In this document: positions 5,014 to 22,346 of the stretch, in pieces
Layout: each line of letters starts with the position of its first letter
Numbering within the stretch: position 1 is the stretch's first letter
From: a virus
IMG/VR virus record: IMGVR_UViG_3300042546_000558
Location: 1-25,172 of that record
Length of the DNA: 25,172 nt
Reading direction: 5' to 3' (one strand)
Position numbers and translations under genes: made by a program
The notes under the pieces: generated by a model
Database searches by the model: none
What the model was told of the DNA's origin: nothing
The model's input: the letters and a program-made list of their open reading frames with translations, nothing else

Positions 5014-5466
5014 ATGTCTTATTCAGATTTAAAAAATTCAATTCAATTAGCCACTAGTGGTATATTCACCTTGAGCGGTACAACCCCAGCTAAAGGCAAT
5101 ATTGTAGATCGTACAGGATTTGGCAATGTTACTTATACTTTGATTACTGGAACAGTAACAGACGCTGGAACTGCAGACGGCTTTAGCACAGAGATTCAGC
5201 ATTCTGACACAACCGCAGATACTGATTTTACAGCGGTTGCAAGTAGCGATTTAATCGGCTTAGAATCAGCCTTGAAAGTAACCGCTGACACTGCTGATTC
5301 TATCCCAATTGGTAGTATTGGTTATAAAGGCTTAAAACGCTATGTCAGAGCCGTTACTACTGGTACAACTGGCACTAATGCTGTTATAGCTGGACAATGG
5401 ATTAAATCCGCTCCAGATTTACAAGCTGTTACCCCTGTGATTGCCCCTAATATAGCCGCTACTTAA
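5014..5466 (+). CDS. Putative capsid decoration / head-stabilising protein
   Basis: The 150 residues are rich in Thr, Ala, Gly and Val with no cysteine or membrane segment, which suggests a beta-sandwich. The pattern VTYTLITGTVTDAG ... FTAVASSDL ... IGYKGLKRYVRAV resembles small proteins commonly encoded just after HK97-type capsid genes, many of which sit on the outside of the shell. That family role is inference from position, length and composition; I cannot name a specific Pfam family. It has the best ribosome binding site in the head region, consistent with a product needed in hundreds of copies. A head-completion role is the main alternative. Confidence 0.6.
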   Translation: MSYSDLKNSIQLATSGIFTLSGTTPAKGNIVDRTGFGNVTYTLITGTVTDAGTADGFSTEIQHSDTTADTDFTAVASSDLIGLESALKVTADTADSIPIGSIGYKGLKRYVRAVTTGTTGTNAVIAGQWIKSAPDLQAVTPVIAPNIAAT

Positions 5467-5475
5467 TAACAAATT

Positions 5476-5679
5476 ATGAAAATTAAAATGTTAAAAACCT
5501 CTCTAGGTGCAGATGATGGGATTCATATAAAAGAGTATATTGAAAATGAAATATATGATTTATCTGAATCTCTTTGCGCTTGTTTTTTAAATGCTAACTT
5601 GTGTGAGTTGGTTATTGAAAAAGAAGAAAAGCCACCTTTTGAGACCAAAGAAGAAAAGCAAAAAATAAAAACTAAATGA
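5476..5679 (+). CDS. Small head-module protein of unknown function
   Basis: The 67 residues divide into an N-terminal part (MKIKMLKTSLGADDG, then YIENEIYDLSESLCACFLNANLCELV) and a charged lysine/glutamate tail. The first part follows a pattern often seen in small phage head proteins: a short strand, a lysine/arginine-rich loop, a 'Y-x-x-G/E-x-x-Y-D-L' turn, then a helix ending in a short strand. Three cysteines (C-A-C and a later C) are unusual for such a protein. It sits between the putative decoration protein and the head-tail adaptor, and its stop overlaps the next start as ATGA, which supports its being real. No function is proposed. Confidence 0.6.
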   Translation: MKIKMLKTSLGADDGIHIKEYIENEIYDLSESLCACFLNANLCELVIEKEEKPPFETKEEKQKIKTK

Positions 5680-6239
5680 AGACATTAGCAATAATTACTC
5701 AACCGTCTGTAGAACCGCTGACATTGCAAGAAGCAAAGGACTTTTTAAAAATTTCTGATGCTTCGCAAGATGTTTATTTAACCTCGTTAATAACCGCAGT
5801 TAGACAGGCTATTGAGCATTATTGCTGTTCTTCTTTTATTTCTCAAGTTTTGCGATTAACTATAGATTATTCTGATTTATGTAATGAGTTGGCATTGTGG
5901 CAAGGTCCGGTAAGCTTAATTAGTTCTTTTAAAATTTTTGATTCTGAAAATATTGAAAGTACCATAAGTAATACTATGTATTTTTTACATGATGATTATT
6001 TATATTTAAACCAGAATTTTTCTATTGATATTACCCTCAGAGAAAAAGCAAGTATACAAATAACTTACACTGCGGGCTATGGTGCAACCGCTTTAAGTGT
6101 ACCCAAAGCAATAAAACAGGCTATTTTAGAGCAAATTGGTAGTATCTTTTATTGCAATCAAGAGGGGTCTATGAAAATATTATTAACAGATAAAGCTAAA
6201 GTATTAATTGACTCTTATAGATTGATTAGGTGGGTATAA
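5676..6239 (+). CDS. Head-tail adaptor, HK97 gp6 / phiE125 gp8-like
   Basis: Adaptor proteins of this family form the ring bound directly under the portal after packaging. The N-terminus contains the hallmark EPLTLQEAKDFLKI helix, followed by a second helix with two cysteines (EHYCCSSF). Next comes a beta-rich insert with LWQGPVSLISSFKIFD, the strand pair YLYLNQ...ITLREKASIQITYTAGYG, and the closing helix VPKAIKQAILEQIGSIFYCNQE. The order and the 187-residue length match this group. The start overlaps the upstream stop as ATGA, and its TAA overlaps the next ATG. The next gene is a head-closure protein, giving the expected adaptor-stopper pair. Confidence 0.88.
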   Translation: MKTLAIITQPSVEPLTLQEAKDFLKISDASQDVYLTSLITAVRQAIEHYCCSSFISQVLRLTIDYSDLCNELALWQGPVSLISSFKIFDSENIESTISNTMYFLHDDYLYLNQNFSIDITLREKASIQITYTAGYGATALSVPKAIKQAILEQIGSIFYCNQEGSMKILLTDKAKVLIDSYRLIRWV

Positions 6240-6589
6240 TGGCGTGTTTTTGTTTCCACAAATTAGCAACTAATATAATAATCATTGAACAGCCTTTAAA
6301 TACTGTAAGTGATATTGGCACGCCAATAAAAACATGGTCTACTTTTAGCACAACTAGCGCATTTATTGAGCCAAAACAAGTTAAAGAAATATTTGAAAAT
6401 GGGCAATTGATAACTAAAAATTATTTTAAAATAATAATAAGATATAATAGTTTGATAATGCCAAACATGAGAGTTAATTCCCAAAACAAAAATCATAATA
6501 TAATTGGTATCAGACACCTTTATACTGATTTAAAAACCTTGGGTAAACATTACACCGAATTAACCGCCGTAGAGGGAGAGATAAGCTAA
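6239..6589 (+). CDS. Head closure (stopper) protein, SPP1 gp16-like
   Basis: The protein would seal the portal channel under the adaptor ring and provide the docking face for the tail. I chose the ATG at 6239, which overlaps the upstream stop as TAATG and is preceded by AGGTGG at about 4-6 bases. A GTG 9 bases earlier would add only three residues. The 116-residue product has the small beta-barrel pattern of the head-tail joining family: an early strand, the W-S-T-F...SAFIEPKQ segment, then a Y-F-K-I-I-I-R-Y strand. It continues with MRVNSQNKNHNIIGIRHLYTD and a last strand ending TELTAVEGE. Divergence is high, so the call leans on length and position. Confidence 0.75.
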   Translation: MACFCFHKLATNIIIIEQPLNTVSDIGTPIKTWSTFSTTSAFIEPKQVKEIFENGQLITKNYFKIIIRYNSLIMPNMRVNSQNKNHNIIGIRHLYTDLKTLGKHYTELTAVEGEIS

Positions 6590-8169
6590 TGGCTTTAGAA
6601 ACATTTGATGATTTAGGCATAGCTTTATTGACTGATAAAATCATTGCAGTCAGAGAGGGTAGCCCTGATAATAGCGGTTATTTGACAGCTCAGTCTTTAG
6701 TAACATTAGCACAAACAGAATTAAGCCCCAGTGATCAAATTATTATTAATGATATAACCGATTTACAACCTTATTTAACTGCGGGGGAGTATGTTATACC
6801 AACAAATAAAGGTTTTTGTTTTACTAAGGATATTATTTTAAATTATCCTATTAAACTGCCAATTATAACTAATTATGCCGATCCTTCTACCGCTTTTACT
6901 TCGATTGTGGGCGGTGGTATAGGGGGTAATGGTTATATTAAAATAATTTACACTGGATCGGGGGCATTTATAAGGGGTACTTATTCCCCAGGTTTAGTTC
7001 TCGAAAAATTAAATTTTGTTAGCACAAATCCACTTAATCAATTATTTAATATTGCTAACGGCTCAAATTCAGCCTTGTGGGCACCCACTTTTATCATTTC
7101 AGATTGCTTTATATATAATTATTCAGATTGTGGATTTATCGAAGGTTTTAATTTAAGTGCTGGTAATAAAATTGCATTTATTGGTTGTGGAAAAGGTATT
7201 AATTTTCAAAATTTTGCAAGTTTAGGCATGGGCATTATTAGCTGGGCAAATGGGCAAAATTTAAGCTTAAGTTATGCCATTAAATTAACTGGTTTGATAG
7301 GTCGGTTTAGTATTGCAGACCCCACAACGGGCATTACTCAAACAAACGAGAGCCTTATTTGGATTGACAATAATATAATTGCAGAAAGAATTTTCTTGAT
7401 AGGTCTGTCAATCACAGGTACTGGGCGGCTTTTCCACGCATCGGGCAAAAATCAAGATAGTCCAGAGGTAGTATGCTATTTTTGCCCGCCTTTTCCAGAC
7501 TCTAACCCCGTAGTTTTTGCAACGAGTACTACCGAAACACTCACTACGATAGGCTCGGCTAATGTTTTTACTCATGTCGTTTTGCCCGCAGGCGGTTATA
7601 CAGACCGATTAATAAAGCGATTTAGCAAAATTGAAAATACTAACGGAAGTGGAATATTTGATGTTTTAAAATATGATGGCATTGAATCAGTAGATATTAA
7701 TATAGTATGTCAATTGACAGCTAGAGCAGTTTCTGGATCTCCAACAGCTCGACTTGCTTTAAATTTAAATGGAACTGCTTTAAGTTATACTGGGTTTCCC
7801 ACCATTTTAGCGGCAACTAATACTCCTTTAAGAACCGAGGGTATTTTAACATTGAGAGGGGCTTTAAATGGTACTTATACTCAAACGGGTACTAGTGTTA
7901 CTTTAACTTTTAATAACAAAGATTTAAATGGTAATCCTTTACATATAACAGGGGAAAAACATTATATAAAAATTAATTCTGGAACAGGTTTAAGTGGCAT
8001 ATATACAATAACATCTCACACGACGACAAGTATTACTTATACATCGGGTACAGCTCTCACCACAAGCGGGAATGCTTCGATACATGATATATTAAAGATA
8101 GACATAGAAAATCAAAGTGCGGCAACTAATATAAATACCTCAAATATAAACTTACAATTAATACTATAA
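6589..8169 (+). CDS. Fibre- or spike-like beta-rich protein inserted in the neck module
   Basis: This 526-residue protein has no enzyme motif that I recognise. Residues 1-60 form a possible anchoring head (FDDLGIALLTDK, then SLVTLAQTEL). Residues ~100-290 have short Gly/Asn-punctuated strands (IVGGGIGGNGYIKIIYTG, IISDCFIYNY, KIAFIGCGKGINF) that suggest a parallel beta-helix. Residues ~320-526 look like one or two beta-sandwich modules (FTHVVLPAG, INIVCQLTARAV, GILTLRGALNGTY). This layout is that of a phage fibre or spike subunit. Its place between head-closure and gp10-like neck genes is unusual, because receptor-binding fibres normally follow the tip genes. It could form head fibres, a neck collar or whiskers, or be a misplaced receptor-binding protein. 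The start and stop both overlap their neighbours as TAATG, so it is embedded in the operon and not loosely inserted. Confidence 0.6.
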   Translation: MALETFDDLGIALLTDKIIAVREGSPDNSGYLTAQSLVTLAQTELSPSDQIIINDITDLQPYLTAGEYVIPTNKGFCFTKDIILNYPIKLPIITNYADPSTAFTSIVGGGIGGNGYIKIIYTGSGAFIRGTYSPGLVLEKLNFVSTNPLNQLFNIANGSNSALWAPTFIISDCFIYNYSDCGFIEGFNLSAGNKIAFIGCGKGINFQNFASLGMGIISWANGQNLSLSYAIKLTGLIGRFSIADPTTGITQTNESLIWIDNNIIAERIFLIGLSITGTGRLFHASGKNQDSPEVVCYFCPPFPDSNPVVFATSTTETLTTIGSANVFTHVVLPAGGYTDRLIKRFSKIENTNGSGIFDVLKYDGIESVDINIVCQLTARAVSGSPTARLALNLNGTALSYTGFPTILAATNTPLRTEGILTLRGALNGTYTQTGTSVTLTFNNKDLNGNPLHITGEKHYIKINSGTGLSGIYTITSHTTTSITYTSGTALTTSGNASIHDILKIDIENQSAATNINTSNINLQLIL

Positions 8170-8561
8170 TGGCTAGCAAATACAAAAACTTAGAACAAAA
8201 AATTTACAAAGAAGTAAGAGGCGCATTAAATGGGATTGCGCTATCAATGGCTAATGAATGCCGTGCAAAAATGGCTCAAGTAAGCAATGGGCGTGTTTAT
8301 GGTAAACATACAGCCTCAAAATCAGGCGATTACCCAAATATTGATACTGGTACTTTAAATAATGCTATTTTTAATGATTTGGTCTCTAGTGAATTAATCG
8401 CTAGATTCGGGGTTAGAGGGAATATACCTTATGCCAAAATGTTAGAATATGGAACTAGTAAAATGGAACCAAGACCATTTATAAAGCCAACTTATGACAA
8501 GTATAAAAATAATATAGTTCCCGCCGTTGATAAGGCCATAAAGAGGGCAATAAATGGATAG
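8169..8561 (+). CDS. Neck / tail-completion protein, HK97 gp10 family
   Basis: Proteins of this family sit at the head-tail junction and help complete or join the tail. The 130 residues carry an N-terminal helix rich in Lys and Ala (NGIALSMANECRAKM) and a loop with SKSGDYPNIDTGTL. The family signature IPYAKMLEYGTSKMEPRPFIKPTY follows near residues 85-108, and then a C-terminal helix. The Y-A-x-x-x-E-Y-G-T-S-x-M-x-P-R-P-F motif is diagnostic. The start overlaps the upstream TAA as TAATG, and the end overlaps the next gene by 8 bases. Confidence 0.9.
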   Translation: MASKYKNLEQKIYKEVRGALNGIALSMANECRAKMAQVSNGRVYGKHTASKSGDYPNIDTGTLNNAIFNDLVSSELIARFGVRGNIPYAKMLEYGTSKMEPRPFIKPTYDKYKNNIVPAVDKAIKRAING

Positions 8562-8958
8562 TACAATAGCAAGTTTGAAAGGAGTGAGAAATAAATTAAT
8601 TGCAAATAGTGCATTAATTGCATTAGTTGGTAATAAAATTTATAATAAAGCTCCTCAAGAAACAATTTATCCTTTTGTTAAGATGTCAATAAATACAGAA
8701 TTAAGTCCAGTGATAAATAATAGTTCTCAAGTTTTTACTCACATTTTGAGGTGTCAAGCTTGGTCTCAAATATCGCTAGAAGAGGCAATTAATATTAGGA
8801 GTGCTATTTTTAATGCTTTACATAGGCAATCTTTAACTCTTGACAGCCCTTTTAAATTGATAGATTGCCAAGTTAATACTTTATTGGATGCTTTCTTGGA
8901 AAGCGATGGCAAAACTTATCAGAGTGTTATTGAGTTTAAAATTAGTGTAAATTCTTGA
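8554..8958 (+). CDS. Tail terminator, DUF3168 family (SPP1 gp17 / HK97 tail terminator type)
   Basis: This protein would cap the head-proximal end of the tail tube and stop its growth. The 134 residues follow the DUF3168 layout: a starting helix (LKGVRNKLIANSALIALVG) and KIYNKAPQETIYPFVKMSI as first strand. A central strand (FTHILRCQAWSQ) and a helix (EEAINIRSAIFNALH) follow, ending with a paired strand (YQSVIEFKISV). It comes directly after the gp10-like gene, which is the normal pairing. A usable ribosome binding site, AAGAGGG, lies inside the end of the upstream gene about 6 bases before the ATG. Confidence 0.87.
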   Translation: MDSTIASLKGVRNKLIANSALIALVGNKIYNKAPQETIYPFVKMSINTELSPVINNSSQVFTHILRCQAWSQISLEEAINIRSAIFNALHRQSLTLDSPFKLIDCQVNTLLDAFLESDGKTYQSVIEFKISVNS

Positions 8959-15781: not shown

Positions 15782-18700
15782 ATGCCTATGTTAATAGTTC
15801 CTTTGGTGCAGGCTTTGGTAGTTGCCCTTATTACAACAGCTATTACGATGGCAGTGGGCATGATTACAAAATCGCTAACAAAAAAGAAAAAAACTCCAGC
15901 CAGAAAAGCGGGTAATAAAGCCCAAGAGAATAAACAAAATATCACGGAAACAACAACCGATTTACCTATTATTTATGGACGGTCTCGGATTGGGTGTAGT
16001 CAAGTATTTATTTCGCAAAAATTTGCTTATGCTGGTACTACCACCCGATGGGAACAAGGACAAGAAATTGAATTTGACACAAGGGGCGAATATTTATATA
16101 TAATAGCGGCTATCTGTATCGGGGAAATTGATGATATAGAACAAACTTATATCGACGGTATACCTATCACAAATAAAAAATTTAGCAATGGATATAGAAA
16201 TAATTTAACCTTTAGTTGGTCTTTTGCAGAGCCTAACCCAATCACTTTAACTACTGTTGATGTTCAGGCGGCCTTAAGAAGTTATCGAAGTAACTACTAT
16301 TTATTAAATCAAGGATATGTTTATGATTCCACGCAAAATGTTTTAAAAAAAGCAATAAGTTATCAACCAAAAAGATATAGATTATCCCTTATCGTTGCTG
16401 GCAAAAAAAATCAAATTATATCTTTTGTTGGTGGTACTCAATCAATCAATTTGCAAAATGCAGGATATGGTAGTAAGCAATATATATTAGAATATTTAAA
16501 AGATAACGGTGCCATTGTTATTGTCGGCCAAGGAACAGTTAATTTAACCCAAGATAATGCCGATTTTACTCAACCAGTAAATAATAATTTGACAATTACT
16601 CAAAATAGTTATTTAGCATCAAAGTATTTGCAAATTGAAGAAAAAAAAGGAACTTTAACTCAAACAGCTAATAATTATTGGTTGGCTCAAGGTGTTCCCT
16701 ATTATACAGATAATGCACGGGGTAAAAATGTCGCTTTATGTTACTTTAGAGGATTATTAAGAACCGCTGGCCCTGATATTGATAAAGCCCCCTTGCAAGG
16801 CATACCTGTTTTAACTTTTGATATTAGAGGCAAAAAAGTATTAGACCCTCGTACAAATTTTAAAGTTTATAGTAATAATCCTATATTGTGCTTGCTTGAT
16901 TATATGCTTGACAGCTTGTATTATGGCTGTAAAATCGAATTGGAAGATGTAGATTTAGATAGTTTTATTGAAGAAGCTAATCATTGCGATGAGTTAATAA
17001 CCGCTCAAGATGGTATTACTCAAATAAAAAGATATGTAATTAACGGCGTAATTGATACGACTAATGAAACTATTGATAATATAATTGATATTTTAGAAGT
17101 ATGTAATGGAACTTTATTTAATGATTTTGGGAAGTGGAAAGTCTATATTGAAAAGCCCGAGACCTCTGATTGGGTCTTTAATTTAGACAATATGATTGGT
17201 TCGGTATCAATTACAACTGGAGAATTTAGAAGTAAAATAAATACTATTCATACTACTTTTATTAATGAAAAAACAAACTGGGAAGGTGATGTTATAACTA
17301 TCACAAATGATATATTTGTACAACAAGATTTAAATAAAGTCTTTGATACAGAGCTACAATTGCCGTTTACCAATGATTATGATCATGCTTATTATTTAAC
17401 TTTGTTTAAACTAAAAAGTGCAAGATTAGATAAACAAATTACATTTACCACTTTTTGGGACTCCGTGGAATTACTACCAGGCTCAGTAGTATCTATTGAT
17501 AGAGCTGATTTAGGCTTTAATAATAAACTTTTTCGAATAAAAGAAATTGAGCCAGATAATGAAAACGGGCTTTTAAAGATAGTAGCGAGTGAATACGATG
17601 ATGATGTTTATAATAACCTTAATATTGACCCAGAGGCCAACAATATAATATCTGGATTAGCTAGTGCTTTTGATGTGGAACCGCCAAGCAATGTACAGGT
17701 TAAACAAACTTTTGAATTCGATGTAAATAATAATTATTATACTCAAACTCGTTTTGAATGGACTCCAAGCCCGTCAATTAATATCAGAAATTATACTTTA
17801 GAATATAGAACATTTGGATGGGGCGATTGGGTCAAGCTAGGCACGGCTCAAAATACAACCGTGATATTTAATAATATACCAACTGGATTATATGATTTTA
17901 GGATTAAAGCAACTAATGATATAGGAGCCGATTCTGAATATTATGAAGAAATTATTGAAATTTTTGCACCCACTGCCCGCCCTCAAGATGTAACTAATTT
18001 TAATATAGGCTCGTCAAGTAATGAGTTTGTTTTAAGATGGAATTTAGTACCAGAGGTCGCAAATAATGGATTTTATATTATCAGACATACTCGCAATTTA
18101 ATAAGTCCGACGTGGAATGATGTTTTGACTTTTGAAATTATAGTACCAGGTTATCAAACTTCGATTACAACCAGCCAAATAGATGGTACTTACATGATTA
18201 AAGCGGTTAATTCGGCGGGTTTAATGAGTGTAAATAATGCTAATTTGACCCTTGATAGCCCTTATGATTCTGAGTATGTTTTAATCCAAAGTATTTCAGA
18301 AAATCCTTCTTTTTCTGGCGAAATTTTAAATTATCCTATTAGCTTAACCAATATTTTACAATGGAAAGGTGAAGACCTTCTCTGGAAGGGGCAAAACTTG
18401 CAATGGACTGAAGATATTGGCATTCAGTCAATGTCTATAAATAATGGCATTTTAAGTTTGAGTAATACTTTAACTTGGGATAGCTTAGATCAAGATATAA
18501 CTTGGGATCAATTTGATCCATCCTTAACTTGGGACAGCTGGAATAATTCCAACGTTTTGATCGGAGTTTATAATTTTGCAAATGGACTCGATTTAGGCGG
18601 TGTTTATAAAATTGTTTTGGAAAAAAATATAATTGCCACAAGTTTTGATTCCACGGGCACAACTTGGGATCAGCTTGACTCTAGTTTGACTTGGGCGCAA

Positions 18701-19186
18701 TTTGACCAAAACCAAAGCTGGGATCAATACGATGGCAATATTGCAGACGCTCCTAGACTTTATTTATATGTTCGTTATACCCGAGACAATCCTAGTAATA
18801 GCCCATCGTGGACAGAATGGCAATTATTAACTAAAAATGAATTTGTTTGCCACGCTTGTCAATTTAAATTAGAAGTTATCAGCCCAATTAAAACAACTAA
18901 TATTTTAATTTCTGGATTAAGTATAAAAGTTTGGATGCGGTCGAGAGTAGATCAGGTCAAGGTTTTATATGATACCGAAAATCAAAATATTTTATTTAAT
19001 AAACCTTTTTATCAATTGCCCGCTACAACTTCGATTACAATTAATAATCCAGATAATGGTGATTATACTAGCTTTAACCTGCTAACTGAAAGCGGTTTTA
19101 ATGCTAATATTTATGATAGTAATAATCAGATAGTATCAAGAATGATAACTAGTACAACTTACGGCGTAGGAGAGCGCATTATATGA
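15782..19186 (+). CDS. Tail tip / central fibre protein, lambda gpJ-like
   Basis: The 1134-residue protein would form the trimeric tip that contacts the cell. Residues 4-30 are hydrophobic and could span a membrane; they are followed by KKKK and then LPIIYGRSRIG, a usual early motif in gpJ-like proteins. The conserved tip core lies near residues 426-613 (TIDNIIDILEVCNGTL, then the SVSITTGEFRSKINTIHTTF region). Two fibronectin type III-like domains follow at about 632-725 and 732-826. Residues ~858-985 carry three blocks of short tryptophan repeats, listed separately. The stretch after the repeats has no recognisable domain. The gene ends with an ATGA overlap onto the fibre gene. Host-specific variation is most likely in the C-terminal third. 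Confidence 0.88.
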   Translation: MPMLIVPLVQALVVALITTAITMAVGMITKSLTKKKKTPARKAGNKAQENKQNITETTTDLPIIYGRSRIGCSQVFISQKFAYAGTTTRWEQGQEIEFDTRGEYLYIIAAICIGEIDDIEQTYIDGIPITNKKFSNGYRNNLTFSWSFAEPNPITLTTVDVQAALRSYRSNYYLLNQGYVYDSTQNVLKKAISYQPKRYRLSLIVAGKKNQIISFVGGTQSINLQNAGYGSKQYILEYLKDNGAIVIVGQGTVNLTQDNADFTQPVNNNLTITQNSYLASKYLQIEEKKGTLTQTANNYWLAQGVPYYTDNARGKNVALCYFRGLLRTAGPDIDKAPLQGIPVLTFDIRGKKVLDPRTNFKVYSNNPILCLLDYMLDSLYYGCKIELEDVDLDSFIEEANHCDELITAQDGITQIKRYVINGVIDTTNETIDNIIDILEVCNGTLFNDFGKWKVYIEKPETSDWVFNLDNMIGSVSITTGEFRSKINTIHTTFINEKTNWEGDVITITNDIFVQQDLNKVFDTELQLPFTNDYDHAYYLTLFKLKSARLDKQITFTTFWDSVELLPGSVVSIDRADLGFNNKLFRIKEIEPDNENGLLKIVASEYDDDVYNNLNIDPEANNIISGLASAFDVEPPSNVQVKQTFEFDVNNNYYTQTRFEWTPSPSINIRNYTLEYRTFGWGDWVKLGTAQNTTVIFNNIPTGLYDFRIKATNDIGADSEYYEEIIEIFAPTARPQDVTNFNIGSSSNEFVLRWNLVPEVANNGFYIIRHTRNLISPTWNDVLTFEIIVPGYQTSITTSQIDGTYMIKAVNSAGLMSVNNANLTLDSPYDSEYVLIQSISENPSFSGEILNYPISLTNILQWKGEDLLWKGQNLQWTEDIGIQSMSINNGILSLSNTLTWDSLDQDITWDQFDPSLTWDSWNNSNVLIGVYNFANGLDLGGVYKIVLEKNIIATSFDSTGTTWDQLDSSLTWAQFDQNQSWDQYDGNIADAPRLYLYVRYTRDNPSNSPSWTEWQLLTKNEFVCHACQFKLEVISPIKTTNILISGLSIKVWMRSRVDQVKVLYDTENQNILFNKPFYQLPATTSITINNPDNGDYTSFNLLTESGFNANIYDSNNQIVSRMITSTTYGVGERII
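18356..18418 (+). repeat. Three 21-base repeats encoding L-x-W-x-x-x-x units in the tip protein
   Basis: Three consecutive in-frame units encode LQWKGED, LLWKGQN and LQWTEDI. The tryptophan spacing of seven residues is exact. The units have diverged at DNA level. Confidence 0.85.
18473..18553 (+). repeat. First block of three 27-base repeats (T-W-D-x-x-D) in the tip protein
   Basis: Units start at 18473, 18500 and 18527 with ACTTGGGA and encode TWDSLDQDI, TWDQFDPSL and TWDSWNNSN. They are in frame and exactly 27 bases apart. Confidence 0.9.
18662..18742 (+). repeat. Second block of three 27-base repeats (T-W-D-x-x-D) in the tip protein
   Basis: Units start at 18662, 18689 and 18716 and encode TWDQLDSSL, TWAQFDQNQ and SWDQYDGNI. 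They match the block at 18473-18553 and are separated from it by about 108 bases of a different beta-rich segment (NVLIGVYNFANGLDLGGVY). Confidence 0.9.
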
Positions 19187-20370
19187 GTCAAGTCGATTAT
19201 ACTATTAACAGTAATGAGCCTATTGTAAATGTTCGTACTGATATTATGGCATTTGCTCAAGCCATTTTAACGCAAAATAGTGGGAATACAGCTCCTGTAG
19301 TCAAATATGAGGGTATGTTTTGGGCGGATACTACTACCAATTTATTAAAGCAGTGGCATGACCCTAATTGGTTAATTATTTCTGAGTTGAATAAAGTTGG
19401 TAATTTATCAGTAAATGCTGGCAATCCTAATGGCGCAATTACTGGCTTGTATGAAGGACAACCTCTTTATGATACCTTAAATAATATTCCTTGGTATTAT
19501 TCTGGAAGTGGTACATCTTGGTTTACTTCAAATGGTACAGCTTCTCTTGCAGTAACTAAAACAGCTAATTATACAGCTACTACAGCGGACAGTATAATAT
19601 TATGTGATGCCACTTCTGGAAATATCACAATTACACTATACACAGCGGTGGGAAATGCTGGGCGTAAATTAACAATTATAAAAACAGATTCTTCGACTAA
19701 TACTGTAACTATTGATGGAAATTCTACAGAAACAATAAATGGAGCATTAACTCAAGTATTATTTACTCAGCACAGCACTTTAACTTTAGTGTCTAATGGC
19801 ACTAACTGGCAAATTGAAAATGGACAATTAAACCGAGTTTTACTTAATGAAACAGTAGTTAGCTCAGCCGTAGCAAGTGTAAATTTTACTAGTTTGATTA
19901 CATCAACATTTAAAAAATACACAATAGAGTTAATCAATATAATCTCTGTTACAAACGATGTCAATTTGCTATTAAGGACAAGTTCTAATAATGGCTCTAG
20001 TTGGGACGCAGGTACTGGATATAGTACTCAAGGCTTACTCGTTGCTTCTACTACTGGTACTAATTCAGTTAATTTATGCAACCCCGCTTACAGTGCAATA
20101 CTGCTAACACTAGACGCTGCTACAGGCAGACTTGCTAACAGTGCGACACGAGGAGGCTTAAATAGTACAATTGATTTGTATAACCCTTCTTCCACAACAG
20201 CTATAAAACATTTTAAATATTTAACAGCCTATTCCCCTTCTGGAACTACCTCTTACACTATCTATGGTGGTGGAACAAGACAAACGACTTCCGCAGTTAA
20301 TGCTGTGCAAATCATTTGTTCTAGCGGAAATATTGCATCTGGTACTCTCAAACTTTATGGAGAAAATTAA
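19183..20370 (+). CDS. Modular receptor-binding tail fibre protein
   Basis: The 395 residues divide into three modules seen in many phage fibres. Residues 1-70 contain VRTDIMAFAQAILTQNSGNTAP and MFWADTTTNLLKQW, a common fibre attachment segment. Residues ~123-212 contain VTKTANYTATTADSIILCDAT, RKLTIIKTDSSTNTVTIDG and LVSNGTNWQI, a widespread fibre shaft or beta module. Residues ~225-395 look like a jelly-roll head ending AVNAVQIICSSGNIASGTLKLYGEN, a pattern I associate with receptor-binding modules in aquatic phages. The ATG overlaps the tip gene's stop as ATGA and is served by AGGAGA at 19168-19173. The gene for a probable assembly protein follows 5 bases downstream. The receptor is unknown. 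Confidence 0.82.
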   Translation: MSQVDYTINSNEPIVNVRTDIMAFAQAILTQNSGNTAPVVKYEGMFWADTTTNLLKQWHDPNWLIISELNKVGNLSVNAGNPNGAITGLYEGQPLYDTLNNIPWYYSGSGTSWFTSNGTASLAVTKTANYTATTADSIILCDATSGNITITLYTAVGNAGRKLTIIKTDSSTNTVTIDGNSTETINGALTQVLFTQHSTLTLVSNGTNWQIENGQLNRVLLNETVVSSAVASVNFTSLITSTFKKYTIELINIISVTNDVNLLLRTSSNNGSSWDAGTGYSTQGLLVASTTGTNSVNLCNPAYSAILLTLDAATGRLANSATRGGLNSTIDLYNPSSTTAIKHFKYLTAYSPSGTTSYTIYGGGTRQTTSAVNAVQIICSSGNIASGTLKLYGEN

Positions 20371-21237: not shown

Positions 21238-21624
21238 ATGGAAACAAAAGAATTTCATCCGTTAATTTTGCTGGAAACACTAGATAAATACTATGTTTGT
21301 GGCAATGGCAAAAAAATGAAAATGGGCTTGTATCAATGCTTTTGCGGGAAACAAGTAGAAAGGCCAATTTTTAGAATCAAGAGCACAAAACAGCGCAGTT
21401 GTGGCTGTTTAATTGGCTCTAAATCAGCAAAAAAACCCAAGCAAAATGTAGGTGATTTTAAAAAAGAAGTACCTTATACCCCTCGCACGTTAATTTTAAT
21501 ATTTTTACAAAATCCATTAGTACAAAATATTAAAAATTTACAAAAGTTGAAAAATTTATACTATCAAATCTTTGAAGATATAATAACAGATACTTTACTG
21601 GAGGAACTAAAAAAACGAATATGA
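21238..21624 (+). CDS. Zinc-ribbon protein carrying a duplicated K-E-V-x-Y-T-P-R-T domain
   Basis: The 128-residue protein has two parts. Residues ~15-60 form a zinc-ribbon-like unit with C34-x-C36 and C55-x-C57 (YQCFCG ... QRSCGCL). That pattern is common at the N-terminus of phage AP2/HNH-type DNA-binding proteins, but no nuclease domain follows. Residues 72-128 (KKEVPYTPRTLILIFLQNP...) match residues 12-66 of the small protein at 23413-23631, with about 29 identities in 55 ungapped positions by hand alignment. I do not recognise this second domain in any named family. It is the first gene after the AT-rich gap, and its stop overlaps the thyX start as ATGA. A DNA- or RNA-binding regulatory role is possible but unproven. 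Confidence 0.65.
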   Translation: METKEFHPLILLETLDKYYVCGNGKKMKMGLYQCFCGKQVERPIFRIKSTKQRSCGCLIGSKSAKKPKQNVGDFKKEVPYTPRTLILIFLQNPLVQNIKNLQKLKNLYYQIFEDIITDTLLEELKKRI

Positions 21625-22346
21625 ATAAAATATACTATCCATTAAATGATAATATTGGCTCAGTGCAATTGGTAGACAGTGTCGGAGATGATGCTGGAAT
21701 AGTTAATGCCGCCCGTGTGAGCTTTGGCAAAAGAATAGACAGTATTGCAGACAAAGACCGAAAACTTATAAAATACTTACTGGAGCATGACCACGGTACA
21801 CCGTTTGAGCATAATAGCTTAACCTTTTTAGTTAAATGCCCTATCTTTGTAGCCCGTCAATGGTTTAGGCATAGAATAGCCAGTTTTAACGAAATTTCGG
21901 GGCGTTATGTCGAAGTGAAAGAAGAATTTTATATTCCGCAAAATTTCAGAAAACAAAGCGAAAATAATAGACAAGCAAGTGTTGATGAGTATGTGGAAAA
22001 CATCGAAAGATATGATCCGAATAGCCCTAAAGCAAATCAATCTAATCAATATGGTTGTTTTATGCACTCGCCAAAAGCTTTAGTCAGAGAGCATTACGAG
22101 GCAAGTTTTACTTTATATCAAGAATTATTAGAAGCTGGTGTTTGCCGTGAACAAGCCCGTGCAGTGTTACCATTAGCTACGTATACTGAATATTATTTTA
22201 CTTGCAATTTAAGAGCTTTATTGCATTTTATCAAGCTTAGAGACCACGACGGGGCGCAATGGGAAATACAGCAGTATGCTAAAAGTATAAAAGAAATAGT
22301 TAAAGAAATATTCCCAGAAACTTTTAAAATAATAGAAAATGGCTAA
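21621..22346 (+). CDS. thyX: FAD-dependent thymidylate synthase
   Basis: ThyX methylates dUMP to dTMP using methylenetetrahydrofolate, with FAD and NADPH as redox partners. The signature R-H-R-x7-S is present at residues 83-93 (RHRIASFNEIS). The C-terminal block EQARAVLPLATYTEYYFTCN and LRALLHFIKLRDHDGAQWEIQQYA is typical of the family, and the 241-residue length is normal. HGTPFEH near residue 60 fits the N-terminal active-site region. The start overlaps the upstream stop as ATGA; GGAGGA lies about 15 bases upstream, too far to be an ideal ribosome binding site. In an AT-rich phage this enzyme would boost dTTP supply during replication. It is the most securely identified gene in the accessory cluster. 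Confidence 0.96.
   Translation: MNKIYYPLNDNIGSVQLVDSVGDDAGIVNAARVSFGKRIDSIADKDRKLIKYLLEHDHGTPFEHNSLTFLVKCPIFVARQWFRHRIASFNEISGRYVEVKEEFYIPQNFRKQSENNRQASVDEYVENIERYDPNSPKANQSNQYGCFMHSPKALVREHYEASFTLYQELLEAGVCREQARAVLPLATYTEYYFTCNLRALLHFIKLRDHDGAQWEIQQYAKSIKEIVKEIFPETFKIIENG

Follow-up and report, generated by a model that had tools for sequence, protein, structure and literature searches.

Fibres mounted on the neck or the head of phages are seldom recognised in sequence data, and little is known of what they do in adsorption. The fibritin of phage T4 (wac), encoded beside a neck gene, is a coiled-coil rod. The neck passage structure (NPS) of lactococcal phages (936 group, TP901-1) is an accessory component whose gene lies upstream of that for the major tail protein and which immunogold places on the neck (PMC4759559), and some NPS groups end in beta-helix or carbohydrate-esterase-like domains (PMC6669499). 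In Vibrio phage XM1, gp40 forms a collar spike on the neck, and its tailspike-like end has been proposed as a host sensor (PMC10457771), and the neck fibre of A-1(L) has a carbohydrate module that did not bind its host (PMC10966104).

In this context, we analysed a window (i.e., the whole stretch of DNA, 25,172 bases, taken from an IMG/VR virus record) from a freshwater long-tailed phage. Gene identities were assigned by Pfam and PHROGs for some genes, and by sequence and position for the others. The order is TerL, portal, MuF-like, protease, HK97 major capsid protein, a 150-aa gene, a 67-aa gene, gp6-like adaptor, Hc1, the fibre gene, Neck1, tail terminator, a 119-aa tail gene, tail tube, a 1264-aa tape-measure candidate, tail-tip genes, the gpJ-like gene, and a 395-aa gene. 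No sheath gene was seen in this module, which is thus of the siphovirus type. The features considered were:

5676..6239, + strand: head-tail adaptor, gp6-like (PF05135, E=1.2e-8; phrog_442, E=1.5e-22)
6230..6589, + strand: head closure Hc1, TAATG overlap with the fibre gene (PF05521, E=2.5e-12; phrog_25, E=2.4e-7)
6589..8169, + strand: fibre gene P0001, 526 aa (ORF call; family profile E=4.3e-8)
6589..6732, + strand: probable virion anchor, residues 1-48 (unmatched; pLDDT about 40-60)
6733..7497, + strand: putative beta-solenoid-like body, residues 49-303 (family alignment; regular strands at 104-185, pLDDT mostly 70-95)
7498..8166, + strand: predicted C1q/TNF-like knob, residues 304-526 (VIA Z 14.1 to EDA-A1)
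7843..8088 (limits approximate), + strand: insertion inside the knob domain, about residues 419-500, ~80 aa (alignment A8; absent from 48 relatives)
8169..8561, + strand: Neck1, HK97 gp10-like, TAATG overlap with the fibre gene (phrog_5, E=5.9e-13)
8554..8958, + strand: tail terminator, gp17-like (PF11367, E=2e-9)
15782..19186, + strand: gpJ-like central tail fibre protein (phrog_31, E=7e-78)
19183..20370, + strand: tail-tip fibre candidate, second fibre, directly after gpJ (phrog_14820, unknown function, E=1.4e-18)

An earlier note on this DNA had described a 526-residue reading frame lying between head-closure and gp10-like neck genes and coupled to both by TAATG overlaps. Both observations were confirmed, with Hc1 upstream and Neck1 downstream by Pfam/PHROGs, and TAATG present at each end in the junction sequences GCTAATGGC and TATAATGGC. 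A chimeric contig is unlikely, since a second IMG/VR contig (both possibly from one lake) is identical to the window over 16,166 bases spanning both fibre junctions. Codon usage gave no sign of a foreign origin of the fibre gene, its GC3 and codon bias being the same as those of its neighbours. The tail-tip fibre also proposed at 19183-20370 does follow the gpJ-like gene, but it matches only phrog_14820, so that position and composition are what mark it as a fibre. Elsewhere in the window, the 150-aa gene after the capsid gene (5014-5466) is a decoration-protein candidate with no Pfam match, its profile matching 116 related loci, and the translation of 21621-22346, read by eye, resembles a flavin-dependent thymidylate synthase (ThyX).

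Direct searches of P0001 against Pfam, PHROGs and the PDB, and by tblastn, gave no match; its apparent orphan status was set aside when a profile search reached its family. Once a stretch of about 80 aa in the C-terminal half was removed from P0001, tblastn gave a weak match, at E=4, with a Vibrio phage 'tumor necrosis factor-like domain protein'. This protein is related over its full length to proteins of other Zobellviridae, and in its C-terminal part to proteins of KVP40-like phages. A first family profile, limited to Vibrio phages, was too narrow (E=1 for P0001 without the insert, level with shuffles). The Zobellviridae/KVP40-like alignment pulled in 15, and later 80, viral loci. With the intermediate profile P0001 reached E=4e-4, and was the sole non-family sequence under E=10 among the ORFs searched. 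The final profile, built from 102 viral proteins with every window-derived protein left out, matched P0001 at full length (E=4.3e-8) and without the insert (E=1.5e-9), the best of 3000 shuffles reaching 0.78. In a MAFFT alignment with 48 relatives, P0001 was aligned from about residue 49 to its end, and the extra stretch stood out as a clean insertion whose removal raised the profile score; a search with this insert (window 7843-8088) gave no significant family match.

The family is large, with 200 tblastn-confirmed matches in one scan of viral contigs. No Pfam model scored above cut-off for seven of its members, the family profile found no match among solved structures, and searches of a library of openly licensed papers gave no description of the family. 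A search of 385 alphaproteobacterial genomes returned 0 matches, though it was run without a positive control and is therefore uninformative. The class of structure is already known from lactococcal neck passage structures and T4 fibritin; the family itself is common to podo-, sipho- and myovirus-type modules, and neither it nor this range of virion types appears to have been described. No N-terminal anchor common to P0001 and the P22-like group of relatives was recognised, as the N-terminal profile of that group had no match in P0001, nor was there a significant match for an N-terminal module shared with the fibres of L058, L008 and L027. As a separate observation, VpV262 ORFM (L178:5001-5984) has only its N-terminal ~84 residues in common with the Vibrio phage relative (42% identity), a pattern that fits an exchange of the body behind a conserved anchor.

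From the P0001 sequence alone, AlphaFold2 gave a useless model (pLDDT 32), while with the 48 relatives the mean pLDDT was 66.6 and pTM 0.50. In the latter model residues 50-190 and the C-terminal core are mostly at pLDDT 70-95, residues 190-285 fall below 50 and are unreliable, and the N-terminus holds one short helix only (10-17), with no long helix in the model. In VIA-align, residues about 304-526 matched EDA-A1 (Z 14.1, rmsd 2.2, 128 aligned) and BclA (Z 13.1), as well as phage chains from cyanophage A4 (9k09, Z 13.0), the A-1(L) short tail fibre (8ke9, 12.3), the phi812 central spike (9eul, 12.2) and the TM4 GP23 receptor-binding domain (9n6a, 11.2). The best BFVD match was a 441-residue viral protein (561 aligned columns, E=4.9e-15). 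A structure with no fibre or spike fold was thus not what prediction and Foldseek returned, and the predicted C1q/TNF-like beta-sandwich at the C-terminus is well supported. The beta-sandwich part of the fold proposed earlier stands with these VIA scores (Z up to 14), but its beta-helix part is our inference from the strand pattern and spacing, the family alignment and full-length Foldseek matches, in a shaft region of which half has pLDDT <50. The Foldseek/VIA rows cover the C-terminal domain only, so the lack of beta-helix rows among them carries no information.

That P0001 is a virion fibre is strongly suggested by its knob and body, by N-termini that differ between the phage groups, and by the structural genes around it. 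It would consist of a beta-solenoid-like shaft with a short anchor at the N-terminus and a C1q/TNF-like knob at the other end, and is probably a trimer, since domains of this fold usually are. As the window phage has the module of a long tail and also a candidate fibre at the tail tip, we read the connector-coupled gene first as a neck fibre, and next as a capsid fibre. On balance, we lean towards a virion-attached, trimeric fibre or spike mounted on the neck formed by Hc1 and Neck1, providing an adsorption contact beyond that of the tail-tip fibre. Start/stop coupling would have the fibre produced together with the connector proteins; it would most likely attach to the Hc1/Neck1 neck and project sideways near the head-tail junction, where it may add a reversible contact to a surface ligand, probably a glycan. 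The near-constant position of family genes next to capsid or connector genes suggests that the phage may grip its host at the neck or head as well as at the tail tip.

Several observations argue for this reading: the gene is flanked by Hc1 and Neck1 and overlaps each through TAATG, it belongs to the family by profile, 83 of 88 relatives adjoin capsid, adaptor or closure genes, other fibre-like proteins and PF23148 occupy the same slot in three related-module loci, a separate fibre candidate already follows gpJ, the C1q/TNF-like fold of the knob recurs in phage receptor-binding chains (VIA), and the lactococcal NPS is an experimentally tested analogue at the neck (PMC4759559, PMC6669499). Against it, the KVP40-like and Zobellviridae relatives lie by the capsid gene, which equally fits a head fibre, the relative in siphovirus L263 follows gpJ, and the carbohydrate module of the A-1(L) neck fibre failed to bind that phage's host (PMC10966104).

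When compared with described systems, P0001 is nearest to NVP1077O_18 of Vibrio phage 1.077.O (Zobellviridae, podovirus) and KVP40.0366 (Straboviridae, myovirus), head-module genes that belong to its family by profile; they differ in lying close to the capsid gene and not between Hc1 and Neck1, in lacking the ~80-aa insert, and in sharing about 20% identity with P0001. Like the lactococcal NPS, the window fibre is encoded by an accessory gene between the connector genes and the major tail protein gene. The NPS, however, has a BppU-like N-terminal ring domain (~130 aa) followed by a coiled coil, and P0001 has no room for these before residue 50, nor had it a match among the NPS PHROGs. T4 fibritin shares the location of a fibre gene beside a neck gene, but its coiled-coil rod contrasts with a P0001 model that has no long helix. 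Lacking both the ring domain and the coiled coil, P0001 falls outside both NPS and fibritin. XM1 gp40 is a neck-mounted spike, as proposed for P0001, yet it has an Ig-like anchor and a coiled coil, and its gene number is far from those of the neck genes (gp1, gp4, gp5).

The genomic placement of the relatives bears on the alternatives. In counts drawn mostly from one similarity-ranked scan dominated by podovirus-type modules, and thus not independent samples, 83 of 88 non-redundant relatives were near the major capsid gene or the adaptor/closure genes, in podovirus-type and KVP40-like modules. Adaptor or closure genes adjoin 57 of the 88 (32 exactly between Ad3 and Hc3, 3 after Ad3 at a contig end, 4 preceding Hc3, and 18 following Hc3 within two genes). 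Another 26 were near the major capsid gene, meaning within three genes on the same strand, with five KVP40-like cases placed by their annotation. Of the remaining five, two adjoin tail-appendage genes, L193 adjoins a head/packaging-class gene, L263 follows gpJ, and L196 is ambiguous. In 31/86 relatives the gene overlaps the one before it (-1 or -4); starts are coupled in L185 and L190 as in the window, and in L276 and L277, long-tailed types from a window-led scan, the relative has a one-base overlap with its upstream neighbour and lies in the interval before the capsid gene.

The proposal in the earlier note of a head fibre or a neck collar/whisker that may bind a different surface ligand is partly supported, by the fibre/spike architecture with a trimer-type knob and by the 83/88 head- or connector-encoded relatives. 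A fibre or decoration on the capsid surface, on capsomers or vertices and off the neck, is a rather unlikely alternative. It draws on the KVP40-like and Zobellviridae relatives, which follow the capsid gene at a distance of one or two genes, on the 26/88 classed near that gene, and on flagellotropic phage 7-7-1, which has long capsid fibres whose gene is not known (PMC12796354); against this, the window gene is four genes away from the capsid gene and coupled to Hc1 and Neck1, and most relatives (57/88) are beside adaptor or closure genes. That P0001 is a tail-tip fibre out of place through rearrangement seems improbable. In its favour, L263:5863-7113, in a siphovirus directly after gpJ, is the one clear tail-tip placement, and L196/L197 lie outside a recognised head module. 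Against it, with 83/88 relatives head- or connector-encoded, homologues are not consistently among tail-tip genes and the window fibre is not simply a moved tail-tip gene; it sits between Hc1 and Neck1, and the tip slot after gpJ is already occupied by another gene. Finally, a protein that mainly stabilises the head-tail joint or aids assembly in the manner of T4 fibritin, and does not chiefly bind the host, is very improbable. In its favour, the wac gene adjoins neck gene 13 and the XM1 gp40 collar spikes reinforce the joint between head and tail (PMC10457771); against it, the slot is empty in most module relatives, where the fibre is therefore dispensable, and the knob is similar to receptor-binding ends already described in phages.

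Podovirus tail fibres are attached to the connector, as said of the P22 gene 4 / T7 tubeA protein (PMC10386132), so that adjacency to connector genes there cannot separate neck from tail, and a connector-adjacent relative may simply be a tail spike. We would only tentatively suggest one family specialised for the head-tail connector, in which the podovirus tail spike and the neck fibre of long-tailed phages would be the same device on a homologous ring, exchanged between virion types through a change of the N-terminal anchor. Whether the same fibre body is found on a podovirus connector, a siphovirus neck and a myovirus head is a testable question. Moreover, the steady gene position provides an annotation rule, by which a large, beta-rich, C1q-ended gene found among the connector genes can be listed as a candidate fibre of the neck or head.

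Returning to the neck-fibre reading, the slot itself was surveyed in about 160 loci with related capsid genes, connector genes being labelled by iterative HMMs. The gap between Hc1 and Neck1 was <150 bases in 47 of the 56 related loci with both genes recognised, and at least 600 bases in six, the window among them; the window fibre gene is thus an uncommon insertion, outside the core, and the Hc1-Neck1 slot is empty in most related loci. Other phages also keep fibre genes there, as indicated by cassettes in L088:14290-17934, L070:13648-16056 and L032:12716-16611, each with a ~135-aa protein, large repeat/beta-rich proteins and, directly before Neck1, an 89-aa protein matching PF23148 'Podophage GP4 fiber-tail adaptor protein gp77' (E=4.9e-27 to 6.3e-29). 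The window shares with these cassettes the slot and a fibre-like protein, but its fibre is of another family and no Gp77-like gene was found in it, with an iterative profile that reached five loci (ORFs of at least 60 aa). The PF23148-type adaptor is also present in L068 and L072. As a marker of the neck slot Gp77 is not strict, being found among tail-tip genes in a mycobacteriophage.

Two apparent parallels were discarded. Gene 40 of Azospirillum phage Cd, of like size and slot, is a tail-tube protein by PF18906, and a 537-aa ORF between Hc1 and the terminator in L102 is arginine-rich and was judged a wrong-frame ORF. Other insertions were seen in related modules. In L008:10341-13298 (MW202897) the capsid gene is separated from the adaptor gene by those for a 275-aa fibre-like protein and a 708-aa GDSL/SASA esterase-type protein, and in L027 a nearby module slot holds a 450-aa collagen-like protein; the 708-aa and 450-aa proteins are candidate surface proteins. 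Furthermore, a 255-256-aa protein of unknown function recurs between the adaptor and Hc1/Neck1 (L054, L057, L060, L061, L066, L080). In L090, L093, L094, L100 and L107, which are Rickettsiales/Alphaproteobacteria prophage-like loci, the interval from capsid to adaptor gene repeatedly holds a similar protein of ~230-290 aa that has hydrophobic stretches.
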